40,382 nt of DNA from Cytophagaceae bacterium. GTDB lineage: Bacteria; Bacteroidota; Bacteroidia; Cytophagales; Cytophagaceae. The DNA lies in contig JALONM010000033.1 of NCBI GenBank assembly GCA_025454925.1, forward strand, positions 1 through 40,382, given 5' to 3'. Under the pieces are notes generated by a model, which was not told the DNA's origin, searched no databases, and saw only the letters and a list, made by a program, of their open reading frames with translations. Position 1 is the stretch's first letter. Each line of letters begins with the position of its first letter. The translations under genes were made by a program, and so were the position numbers. Shown here piece after piece: positions 1 to 3,751 of this stretch.

Positions 1-1000
1 AATAGGCCAGTAAAAAATACCGGACAAAACGTTGGCCTCTTCTGTACTGTAAAATGGCTGCGAAATAAACCAGTAAAATAGGTACTAAGAAGTAAATGGT
101 ATGCGCTTCCCGGATGGTGTCCGATACAGTTATCCAGGTAAATAAGCATAGGTAGGCCAAAACGGAACCTATGGTAAACCAAAAAAATTGACGTTGACGT
201 TCATACAAGTTTAAAAACAAGATGGAATACGTGACGAAGCTGAGCATCAACAACAGAAATGAAATTTCCTTGAAATAATAATTCATCCAAGGATTATTAG
301 GCCAAAAAAACTGAAATCCGATGCCATCTTCTCGAAACGTATGGAGCGCGCAGCTCAATACATAAAACACATAGAATAAATAAGCCCATTCACGAATTTT
401 CAGGAAAAGGAAAAAATTATAAATAGCCATGATGAGGATCACCCCATAATACAAGCCCAGGTAATAATATTCCTGATGGGCATAAGAAGAATAATACAAA
501 GGAGACTTTATTTTCATATGAAAACTTGCTCCCAAATCGGATTGCAGCCTTATGTAATATTCTTTTTCCCGCCCAGGCTTGATGTAATAACTTGGGTTTT
601 TATGCAGCAAACCTCTGTTTTCAAAATTTTCTAAATAACCTCCTGTACCTATCATGGAATCGCCTTCATACACTTGTATATGCCCTATATGCAAGTCTGG
701 GAATTCCAACAACCATAGTGGACACTCCGAATTATTGACCACTTTAAATCGAATCCAATAAGCTGAATGCAGGGATGCGCTGTTATTGGGTTTATCTTGG
801 GGACACTTAAAATCGATCTCAGATTGTAATCTTCGCACCTGATTTAACGTATAAGACAACGTATCGCGCCACACCTCCACCTGGGGGCCCAATAATTTTA
901 TTTCAGAGGATTGATTATTAAGAATGACCACTGGTATCGCCAAAAGCTCCTTTAAAGTAGCCAGCAACAATAAAATCCTCAAAAAGACGAAATAGTTCAT
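1..1000 (-). CDS. 7TMR-DISM sensor protein, C-terminus cut by window edge
   Basis: The minus strand is open from an ATG at 1000 to the left edge (about 333 codons). The N-terminus is a hydrophobic signal segment (NYFVFLRILLLLATLKELLA). It is followed by a roughly 140-residue extracellular domain with the WIRFKVVNNSE motif typical of 7TMR-DISMED2. Then come several hydrophobic helices beginning at YYGVILIMAIYNFFLFLKI, the signature first helix of the 7TMR-DISM seven-helix domain. In this family the missing C-terminus usually carries a histidine kinase, a diguanylate cyclase or a DNA-binding module. The output cannot be seen here. The ligand is often carbohydrate-like, and the gene is divergent from a secreted glucanase, but no functional link is shown. 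Confidence 0.8.
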   Translation of the reverse strand, partial: MNYFVFLRILLLLATLKELLAIPVVILNNQSSEIKLLGPQVEVWRDTLSYTLNQVRRLQSEIDFKCPQDKPNNSASLHSAYWIRFKVVNNSECPLWLLEFPDLHIGHIQVYEGDSMIGTGGYLENFENRGLLHKNPSYYIKPGREKEYYIRLQSDLGASFHMKIKSPLYYSSYAHQEYYYLGLYYGVILIMAIYNFFLFLKIREWAYLFYVFYVLSCALHTFREDGIGFQFFWPNNPWMNYYFKEISFLLLMLSFVTYSILFLNLYERQRQFFWFTIGSVLAYLCLFTWITVSDTIREAHTIYFLVPILLVYFAAILQYRRGQRFVRYFLLAY

Positions 1001-1240: not shown

Positions 1241-3751
1241 ATGTTTACTACATTTCGAATCATCATTTATGTGTGTCTGGGTCTAAGCCTGGGTCTTTGG
1301 GCACAAAAGCCTTACACGGCAGGAGAAATTCAGTCGAGGAATAACACTCAATATGGGCGTTATGATTTCAGAATGTATTCAAGCCGGCACAGCGGTACCA
1401 CTTCAACGTTTTTTCTGTGGAAACAAGGTAGTACCGAAGCCAATGTCCGATGGAATGAAATCGACATTGAAACATTTGGCAAAGATGCCGCCTCCTGGCA
1501 ATCCAACCCTATTTGGGAATACAACGATGGCGATCAAAACACCAAACGCTGGGAAGCCACCCATGGTGGTACAGCCATAGCCCTTACCTGGGTAAATTTT
1601 GGACTGGAATGGACCCCGAACTACATTGCCTGGTTTGTAAACGGCACTGAAGTACGCAGGGTCAATAAAGGAGATAACGTTCCGGCCAACCATTTCCGTT
1701 ACAATAATGGAGACAGCCGCGATCCGGTTACTCATATCGCTGACCCTATGCGTATCGCCTTTAATCACTGGTCGGCATATTCTGTGGGCTGGTTGGGTGA
1801 ATTTTTCCCCAATACTCTGCCCTCCTATCAATTTGTAGACTGGATTACCTACCGTCCCTGGAATGGAACTGGATTTGGTGCGGTAAGCATCCGACATGAC
1901 TTTAACTCCATGGCAGAGGTTAATGAAAACTATTTTGTATCCAACCATACCTTCGACGATAACCGTTGTGACTTTTCGGGAAGAGCAGTAGGTGTAACCA
2001 ATGGCTACTTATGGTTGGGTATTTTTCAGGCTGGCCAGGAGCGTGCTCCCGCAGGAGCCGAACTTCCACGAGACAATAACCTGGCACCTTCCGTGCAACT
2101 TAGCTCACCTGCCAACAATACCGCTTATACAGCACCCGCCAGCATTTCAATGAGCGCCACTGCCACCGATGCCGATGGCACCATCAGCCGGGTAGAATTT
2201 TACAACGGTGCTACCTTGCTAGGTTCAGATGCCACTGCCCCTTACACATTCACCTGGACTAATGTGGCCACAGGCACCTATGCGCTTAGTGCCAGAGCCA
2301 TTGACAATGCTGGAGCTTCCACCCGATCTGCCGAAGCCACAGTTCGCGTAAATGCTTCTGCTCATATCATTCCGAAAAAAATTGAGGCAGAAGCCTACAG
2401 TGCTATGAATGGAATTGTGCTCGAAACTTCTACCGACGCCGGAGGAACCCAAAACCTGGGATACTTGGATGTTGGCGATTGGACAGATTATTTGATTCAG
2501 GTTCCAAGCGCTGGCACCTATCGCATGGAATGCAGGGTAGCAAGCGCCCTCACCACCGGTCGTTTTAGCTGGAACATAGGCACGCAAGTACTTGCTCAAT
2601 TTACCGTACCTAATACGGGAGGCTGGCAAACCTACACCACCCTGGGAGCCAACATTACTTTGCCTGCCGGTACGCATACCTTGCGCATGCAAGTCTCTGG
2701 AGGTGGTTATAACATCAACTTCTTTACCATTAATGCAACCGTATCGAACACAGCCCCCACAGTAACCTTAACAAGCCCGCTTGGAGGCAGCAGCTATACA
2801 ACACCTGCTTCGATTTTACTTAGCGCTGCGGCCAGCGATGCCGACGGCAGTATTGCCCGCGTAGAATTTTACCAAGGAACTACCTTGTTGGGCAGTGATG
2901 TGTCGGCACCCTATAGCATTACCTGGAATCAAAATGTAGCAGGTGAATATGCCATCCGTGCCAGAGCCATCGATAACTTAGGCGCCTCCACCAATAGCAG
3001 CATCAGTACCATCCGTGTAAATCCTGCCAATGAACTTTGCCAAACCCTGGCATTAGGAGCTACCGACTGGGCCTTGCGCAATACCTGGAGCGATGCCCAA
3101 ACGGGCTCTACCCTTGGCTCTATCAATAGCGCTTTAACCGTTACTCATCGTCAATGGGGGCAAGATTATTTCTGGCTGATCAGCACGCAACGTTATGCAC
3201 TGCAAGGGGGACTAACGTACCAACTGAAGTATACGATTTCGGGTAATTACAACATTGCGTCTACGGAAGTTGGGCTTGCCAGTGCTTACCAGTGGGACGG
3301 ACCTACCCTAAGCCAAACCAGCACTGTAGCAGCCGCTGGATATCCACTGAACCAAGCCACTGAAAAGACTATACAAATTCGTCCGGCAGCTTCTGGTTCT
3401 TATCATATCGCCATTCGAGTAAATTTACAAGGCCAACCGCCTTATCCGGCTGTGTTTTCTCTTTCAGGCGTTCAATATTGCGTGGGCACAGTGCTACGAA
3501 ATGCCCAAGGCATCCTCGAAAACGAATCGAATGCTATGGTAGTATTTCCGAATCCTTCCACCGATATGCTGCAACTAGAGTGCGATGGTGCTTATCAATT
3601 GGAGATCGTTAATGCACAAGGATTGAAAGTCGTTGAAACTACCATGGAAAATCATTGGCAATCTGAAATCAAAAACTGGAGCGCCGGCATGTATCAGATC
3701 CGACTTTGTAATGAAGCAGGTTGTAAAACCAAAACGTTCGTAAAACAATAA
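1241..3751 (+). CDS. Secreted multidomain beta-glucanase: circularly permuted GH16, Ig, CBM6, Ig, T9SS sorting domain
   Basis: An 836-residue exported enzyme, predicted to hydrolyse beta-1,3-1,4-glucan (lichenan). A signal peptide ends near residue 21 (LGLWA/Q). Residues 22-270 form a GH16 domain with the catalytic motif EIDIE (E73 nucleophile, D75, E77 acid/base) and the later FGLEWTPNYIAWFVNG segment. The block that normally opens GH16 (HDFNSM...TFDDNRCDFSG...NGYLWLGI) lies at about 219-262, after the catalytic half. This is the order known from the permuted Fibrobacter succinogenes glucanase. An Ig-like domain (283-370), a CBM6 (375-500, IEAEAY...GYLDVGDWTDY), a second Ig-like domain (504-592) and a beta-rich domain (about 597-745) follow. 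The last ~75 residues are a T9SS type A sorting domain (VFPNPSTDMLQLE). Expected location is secreted or cell-surface anchored. It appears monocistronic. Confidence 0.93.
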   Translation: MFTTFRIIIYVCLGLSLGLWAQKPYTAGEIQSRNNTQYGRYDFRMYSSRHSGTTSTFFLWKQGSTEANVRWNEIDIETFGKDAASWQSNPIWEYNDGDQNTKRWEATHGGTAIALTWVNFGLEWTPNYIAWFVNGTEVRRVNKGDNVPANHFRYNNGDSRDPVTHIADPMRIAFNHWSAYSVGWLGEFFPNTLPSYQFVDWITYRPWNGTGFGAVSIRHDFNSMAEVNENYFVSNHTFDDNRCDFSGRAVGVTNGYLWLGIFQAGQERAPAGAELPRDNNLAPSVQLSSPANNTAYTAPASISMSATATDADGTISRVEFYNGATLLGSDATAPYTFTWTNVATGTYALSARAIDNAGASTRSAEATVRVNASAHIIPKKIEAEAYSAMNGIVLETSTDAGGTQNLGYLDVGDWTDYLIQVPSAGTYRMECRVASALTTGRFSWNIGTQVLAQFTVPNTGGWQTYTTLGANITLPAGTHTLRMQVSGGGYNINFFTINATVSNTAPTVTLTSPLGGSSYTTPASILLSAAASDADGSIARVEFYQGTTLLGSDVSAPYSITWNQNVAGEYAIRARAIDNLGASTNSSISTIRVNPANELCQTLALGATDWALRNTWSDAQTGSTLGSINSALTVTHRQWGQDYFWLISTQRYALQGGLTYQLKYTISGNYNIASTEVGLASAYQWDGPTLSQTSTVAAAGYPLNQATEKTIQIRPAASGSYHIAIRVNLQGQPPYPAVFSLSGVQYCVGTVLRNAQGILENESNAMVVFPNPSTDMLQLECDGAYQLEIVNAQGLKVVETTMENHWQSEIKNWSAGMYQIRLCNEAGCKTKTFVKQ

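Follow-up and report, generated by a model that had tools for sequence, protein, structure and literature searches.

A circularly permuted GH16 lichenase domain in a modular, putatively exported protein of a Cytophagaceae bacterium

Introduction

The 1,3-1,4-beta-D-glucanase of Fibrobacter succinogenes (PDB 1mve, 3axd, 3h0o), reportedly described by Tsai et al. in 2003, is the textbook example of an enzyme with a natural circular permutation. A preliminary description of the DNA studied here, a 40,382-nucleotide stretch of a Cytophagaceae contig (the window), had claimed that one of its open reading frames (ORFs) encodes a GH16 domain of this Fibrobacter type, built into a larger secreted protein, and had suggested its transfer between phyla. 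This raises the question of whether the catalytic half of the domain really precedes the strands that open ordinary lichenases, and of how such a domain came to a member of the Bacteroidota. We computed domain order, fold, motifs, architecture, distribution and tree shape, and we infer activity, substrate, export and regulation.

Results

Architecture and gene neighbourhood

The ORF (positions 1241..3751) is complete, starts with ATG and encodes 836 amino acids; all features of the protein lie on the forward strand. A hydrophobic stretch ending in LWA, read by eye from the sequence, suggests a signal peptide at residues 1-21 (1241..1303), and the permuted GH16 catalytic domain, delimited by the alignment to 3axd, profile A1 and the structural model, occupies residues 22-264 (1304..2032). 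It is followed by a tail with the motif PRDNNLAP (residues 265-284; 2033..2092), aligned with the Fibrobacter enzyme and in alignment A3. Pfam, with all matches above the cut-offs, placed GH16 at residues 19-178, a first Big_7 Ig-like domain at 283-351 (2087..2293), a CBM6 at 382-498 (2384..2734; 98.6 bits, with PDB CBM6 matches too), a second Big_7 domain at about 503-593 (2747..3019; PDB 9kvu matches 503-593) and a T9SS type A sorting domain (Por_Secre_tail) at 768-833 (3542..3739). The last was found by both PF18962 (35 bits, cut-off 27) and TIGR04183 (30.7 bits, cut-off 23), and together with the signal peptide read by eye it gives the protein both marks of a T9SS type A cargo.

An unassigned module of about 160 residues (597-760; 3029..3520), predicted to be mostly beta, separates the second Ig-like domain from the T9SS tail. 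It had no match in Pfam, NCBIfam or PDB sequence searches and no second copy in the source genome, and its single-sequence model (pLDDT 61) was too weak to classify it. The Ig-like, CBM6 and T9SS parts had been recognized correctly in the preliminary description, but its order Ig-CBM6-Ig-T9SS omits this module (X), and the tail behind the catalytic domain reads Big_7-CBM6-Big_7-X-T9SS.

On one side of the gene, a divergent gene on the reverse strand (2..1000), cut by the contig end, encodes a 7TMR-DISM sensor protein in which DISMED2 and 7TM parts are recognized (PF07696 and PF07695, above cut-off), a possible regulator; on the other side lie a DUF218 gene and others. A related permuted protein of an uncultured Cytophagales bacterium (L120, genome G396) is encoded between CBM6-bearing genes, one of them a GH26. 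Each of these has a T9SS-like tail, which in some scores below cut-off, and the L120 cluster (L195) also has a 7TMR-DISM gene on the divergent side. We rejected a conserved regulator and claim no synteny, because there are 15-16 DISMED2 genes per genome and the two 7TMR-DISM genes are not reciprocal best matches. The genes surrounding L120 (L195:2681-10316) encode several exported proteins that carry CBM6, Big_7 and T9SS-like tails, along with a GH26 and an expansin-like (DPBB) protein; this run looks like a plant cell-wall degradation cluster. Another GH16 gene of the source genome (L304, G000:C99:103000-111500) has a DISMED2 gene about 4 kb off.

Chain order, fold and active site

The catalytic motif EIDIE is found at residues 73-77 (1457..1471), and its E, D and E are invariant columns in alignments A1 and A3. 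The block that corresponds to the N-terminal strands of canonical lichenases follows at residues 217-264 (1889..2032), as identified by alignment with the C-terminal part of the Fibrobacter enzyme, so that one domain carries the catalytic half first and the canonical opening strands last. Both EIDIE and the block DFN...TFDDNRCDF...NGYLWLGI with PRDNNLAP stand where they had been reported. In a PDB sequence search, residues 22-283 were co-linear with residues 4-248 of 3axd in one local alignment (E 1.2e-32), and canonical lichenases (Bacillus and a mouse-hindgut enzyme) matched the protein only within residues 15-149; a best match to unpermuted GH16 over the full domain, which had been named beforehand as an outcome against permutation, did not occur, the match being confined to the first part. 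Profile A1 matched the domain over its full length with 252.6 bits.

The domain was modelled with AlphaFold2 from an alignment of 30 sequences (pLDDT 90.2, pTM 0.88). In the Foldseek results, rows 1-9 are chains of the Fibrobacter permuted glucanase and the next two are the Bacillus permutants made by engineering, 1cpm and 1cpn; the alignments to canonical lichenases span about 180 columns, with a TM of 0.6 of the target. The structural comparison with the Fibrobacter enzyme and Bacillus lichenase proposed in the preliminary description gave, by VIA-align, Z 33.6 and 1.5 A over 232 residues against 3axe (Fibrobacter enzyme), Z 27.6 against the engineered permutant 1cpn, and Z 16.9 over 158 residues against canonical 1mac and 1gbg. 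Model strands at 211-213, 223-225, 230-233 and 236-243, which lie within protein residues 231-263, have pLDDT 94-97 and belong to the sheet, and the superposition extends to model residue 259; the other outcome named as adverse, that residues 219-262 would not complete the jelly roll, was therefore not observed. The relocated strands are thus predicted to complete a nearly unchanged, closed jelly roll. The least confident interior block of the model (pLDDT 57) is a 17-residue loop insert that the Fibrobacter enzyme lacks (residues 146-162; 1676..1726; alignment A3). The single alignment to 3axd over residues 22-283 and the confident model superposing end to end confirm that the ORF carries a circularly permuted GH16 lichenase domain of the Fibrobacter type, in an order far beyond chance.

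In alignment A3, the window protein shares Phe58, Trp71, Glu73, Asp75, Glu77, Asn175, Trp177 and Trp184 with the domains from Fibrobacter, Sorangium and further permuted proteins, and E-x-D-x-E is retained in 90 of 91 permuted domains. Section 24 of the GH16 subfamily paper (PMC6827312) gives as features of GH16_21 the EXDXE motif, a -1 platform Phe instead of Trp (Phe92 in 1GBG), the +1 Trp192, Trp103, the aromatics Tyr24 and Tyr94, and a short domain of about 210 residues with short loops. With the 1GBG numbering checked on an alignment, the window protein has EIDIE at 73-77, Phe58 at the -1 platform by motif alignment, Trp184 as the +1 Trp and Trp71 before the motif. The Tyr94 place is taken by Trp60, still aromatic, and the Tyr24 place by His236, as in most clade-A permuted proteins shown; the domain is also longer, with about 243 residues including the loop insert. 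In the native Fibrobacter enzyme the residue at the Tyr24/His236 position is presumably Trp203, as mutant names indicate. We file the domain as GH16 lichenase-like and not as a proven GH16_21 member, because the aromatic residue at the Tyr24 place is missing; the NCBIfam model BGlucanaseBglS gave 71 bits on the protein (cut-off 300). The protein is most likely an exported endo-beta-1,3-1,4-glucanase, and the gene context of L120 and of the window protein makes a plant cell-wall glucan the likely substrate class.

Two other readings of the domain have to be weighed. If it were an ordinary, unpermuted GH16, the block at residues 219-262 would be an unrelated Ig-like or linker segment that resembles the missing strands by accident, as might be thought from the Pfam GH16 model spanning only residues 19-178 and from canonical GH16 structures aligning to the first part alone. 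The block, however, lies inside the same local alignment to the Fibrobacter enzyme and within the superposed fold up to model residue 259, with its strands at pLDDT 94-97, and nothing but the signal peptide precedes residue 22, which leaves the usual opening strands without any other source. We find this reading hardly credible and rejected it as already refuted by the model and the alignments. There is a minor but real chance that the fold is permuted and the protein is no lichenase, the specificity of the divergent window group having changed (for example to xyloglucan, laminarin or another beta-glucan). Such a change would agree with the loop insert, with His236 in place of an aromatic residue, with a replaced strand motif in the relocated block, with the long branch of the window group and with hemicellulose-type enzymes such as GH26 next to L120; it is opposed by Phe58 at -1, Trp71, EIDIE, the Gln/Asn after EIDIE, Asn175, Trp177 and Trp184, all as in the Fibrobacter enzyme, and by the frequent presence of His at the Tyr24 place in the other permuted clades as well.

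Distribution of permuted lichenase domains

With the window domain as query, the phylum sample gave matches in 43 of its 395 genomes, the class sample in 20 of 395 and the set of near relatives in 12 of 59. Among the latter, 9 of the 18 other genomes of the family had a full-length match, and none of the 40 other genomes of the same order had any. Matches of profile A1 either ran over the full length (about columns 1-227) or were partial (about columns 3-165). Counted among the matches listed, full-length ones occurred in 74 of 120 Fibrobacterota genomes, a count that includes one frame with a stop (G1090), in 25 of 247 Bacteroidota, in 1 of 235 Myxococcota and in 1 of 240 Verrucomicrobiota. 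The Fibrobacterota, Myxococcota and Verrucomicrobiota samples were each built around a centre genome picked for holding a permuted gene, and the single Myxococcota and Verrucomicrobiota hits are these centre genomes.

A contig scan with an alignment as query gave 409 matches, of which the best 80, nearest to F. succinogenes, were kept. These were mostly from Fibrobacter, with others from Sorangium, other Polyangiaceae, Cytophagales, Bacteroidales, and a Prevotellaceae, a Kiritimatiellae and a Verrucomicrobia MAG, where a single MAG contig can be misbinned. The same kind of scan with the window protein alone as query found no relative, and none was found on viral contigs; among plasmids, 143 records had weak matches, 2 of them covering at least 80%. 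Gut and rumen MAGs assigned to Kiritimatiellae, Verrucomicrobia, Prevotellaceae and Bacteroidales (L087, L101, L099, L118, L119) encode Fibrobacter-like permuted lichenases, which represent either recent transfer or misbinned contigs. Two adjacent permuted GH16 genes were seen in L111, L116, L117, L060 and L224, on Myxococcota-like and Fibrobacter contigs, the second copy of L111, L116 and L117 falling in a long-branched group, and a Fibrobacterota ORF (L292, G1064:C1:241000-245000) contains a full permuted GH16 and then a second, interrupted one (columns 5-147, with 151-224 in another frame).

The source genome has 10 GH16 places, two of them permuted, namely the window gene and G000:C72:14802-15470; 7 of the other 8 gave no permuted match (the eighth, on C52, was left out). 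The permuted form is much commoner than the preliminary description supposed, and it is widespread in Bacteroidota. The view of the domain as a Fibrobacter peculiarity acquired here does not hold, given this spread and the second, distantly related permuted copy in the same genome.

Phylogeny and transfer between phyla

For the phylogeny of permuted GH16 that had been proposed earlier, 210 permuted frames were reduced to 151 distinct sequences and to 91 at 85% identity, and canonical lichenases were rotated into the permuted order; with 8 canonical rows, the first tree had 99. For the 63-row tree, 36 of the 99 rows were dropped, including four canonical ones, two of which (the long-branched L289 and L290) had earlier fallen on the permuted side. 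For the 69-row tree, 6 rows were dropped from the 63-row set and 12 Fibrobacterota copies were added. With four canonical rows, permuted and canonical sequences were split at 98/94 in the 63-row and 99/94 in the 69-row tree. Clade B (31 rows at 100/99 and 40 rows at 100/100, respectively) contains, in both trees, every permuted sequence from outside Bacteroidota together with the window protein, and the groups outside it are all Bacteroidota. The clade with the window protein mixes Bacteroidota, Fibrobacterota and Myxococcota. The window protein joins L120 at 100/99 and 100/100, and L152, of its own family, at 97/97 and 100/98, again in the 63- and 69-row trees; the second copy of the source genome groups with the family's copies, apart from the window protein.

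AU tests were run on groups that were named after a tree was seen. Trees in which the window group was held together with the remaining permuted copies of its family were rejected (p 0.00056; 0.0345 on the larger set), as was a single clade of all Bacteroidota (p 6e-76 with the gut MAGs, 5.1e-5 without them, 0.0047 on the larger set). A tree with clade B as the sister of all remaining permuted sequences was not rejected (p 0.409; 0.187 on the larger set), nor were trees that put the window group, which is long-branched, with the other clade-B Bacteroidota (p 0.39) or outside B (p 0.089). The two rejections support transfer of the permuted domain between phyla. The earlier suggestion of such a transfer is thus supported in its general form, one that names neither donor nor direction. 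The trees do not show a single origin, because restoring L289 and L290 again breaks up the canonical side: when the full set of eight canonical rows is used, no branch separates them from the rest, and a single canonical clade is neither recovered nor rejected (p 0.465).

The PRD tail, offered earlier as a tie to the Fibrobacter enzyme, proved unspecific. Among dereplicated proteins it occurs in 4 of 51 from clade B, including the window protein, an F. succinogenes and a Sorangium protein, and in 0 of 40 others, and we rejected it as weak evidence of descent. Base composition gave no clear sign of a recent foreign insert, a possibility we also set aside: the gene has 48.6% G+C against 43.1% in the whole window, and 45.8% at third positions against 43.3% and 47.9% in two neighbours.

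How the permuted line came about allows several histories. Since the non-Bacteroidota permuted sequences of our sample are all in clade B and the groups branching outside B are all Bacteroidota, the permuted lichenase may have arisen once within Bacteroidota, the Fibrobacter enzyme deriving from an outgoing copy and the window gene being a later return of the line; we put this forward tentatively, as possible yet doubtful. It is unlikely that the permutation arose repeatedly at the same place, for example separately in L135, L136, L138 and L139, although with eight canonical rows two divergent Fibrobacterota canonical rows and the group of these four lie outside the other canonical rows. In the trees with four such rows, the permuted sequences are one side of the split (98/94 and 99/94), even the set with all eight does not reject a single canonical clade, the breakpoint is common to all, and L289 and L290 are very long-branched. 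Still less probable, in our judgement, is a history without inter-phylum transfer, in which an ancient permuted family was duplicated before the phyla split and then lost many times. Several genomes, the source genome included, do have two permuted copies, and the root among the permuted clades is not fixed (p 0.41; 0.187). However, many losses would be needed, as none of the 234 other Myxococcota, the 239 other Verrucomicrobiota or the 40 other same-order genomes has a full-length match, and rumen Bacteroidales, Kiritimatiellae and Verrucomicrobia copies lie among the Fibrobacter ones, some of these being MAG contigs that could be misbinned.

Discussion

We consider it highly probable that the product of the ORF is an exported glycoside hydrolase of modular build, that its catalytic domain is a naturally permuted version of the GH16 lichenase fold and that the lineage of this domain has moved between phyla. 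The chain starts directly behind the putative signal peptide, at the strand that bears 'KPYxxGE' in the family, passes the catalytic strand with EIDIE before it reaches the old C-terminus, crosses a short linker and ends with the strands that open a normal lichenase. As judged from the family, Glu73 (which we take to be the nucleophile) and Glu77 (presumably the acid/base) would hydrolyse, with retention, beta-1,4 bonds beside beta-1,3 bonds in mixed-linkage glucan. The CBM6 and Ig modules may hold the enzyme on the polysaccharide, and the C-terminal domain would direct it to the type IX secretion system for export, either to the surface or into the medium. The permuted domain belongs to a family across Bacteroidota and Fibrobacterota, within which, on this reading, the window lineage passed between phyla. 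In the permuted proteins a short linker bridges the former C- and N-termini, and the new start follows closely on the signal peptide, with at most 70 residues ahead of the domain in 79 of 91; duplication followed by trimming is the likely route to the permutation.

The predicted activity of the enzyme is ordinary; its chain order is unusual, real and well supported. One textbook example of permutation becomes a family with two or more deep clades in many genomes, and the occurrence of a canonical and a permuted lichenase in one Sorangium genome provides natural sister pairs, with which the origin of the permutation and its effect on folding and specificity can be tested. This wider family, with its canonical/permuted sister pairs, is more interesting than the single gene. 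In open-licence full text we found no description of such a permuted family, of which CAZy may list members, and the GH16 subfamily paper (PMC6827312) contains no word beginning with or containing 'permut'.

Comparison with known lichenases

The natural permuted lichenase type is already known from Fibrobacter, and the window protein adds a member. It shares with the Fibrobacter enzyme the permuted order, the breakpoint behind the signal peptide, the fold (Z 33.6), EXDXE, the cleft aromatics and a similar tail. The two are 34% identical in A3; the Fibrobacter enzyme is without the 17-residue loop insert and has Trp203 where the window protein has His236, and its C-terminus is replaced in the window protein by Big_7-CBM6-Big_7-X-T9SS. 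L120, with 66% identity, has the same order, part of the loop insert, a CBM6 and a T9SS-like tail, but is without the Big_7 domains and the 597-760 module, and its gene cluster includes CBM6-bearing genes and a GH26. The copy at G000:C72 (L010), in the same genome as the window gene, is also permuted (full-length profile match, 342.6 bits); it is 29% identical to the window protein, falls in another clade together with copies of the family, and has GH16 as its only Pfam domain.

The engineered Bacillus permutants 1cpm and 1cpn are permuted at nearly the same place as the window domain (2AYH site 59). They are laboratory-made, whereas the window domain is natural and more distant in sequence (25-26%). 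The canonical GH16_21 lichenases (Bacillus 1gbg and 1mac; Sorangium L288) share the jelly roll and the active-site motif with the window protein, but have the opening block at the front, and only 158 model residues align. Sorangium So0157-2 has a permuted gene (L104) and, elsewhere, the canonical-order lichenase L288, in which profile columns 168-226 come first and columns 1-163 directly behind, i.e., the opening block lies ahead of the catalytic part. For L288, the alignment to the Bacillus lichenase is a single stretch (15-226 to 8-210) and that to the Fibrobacter enzyme falls into two, a match pattern that is the mirror image of that of the window protein.
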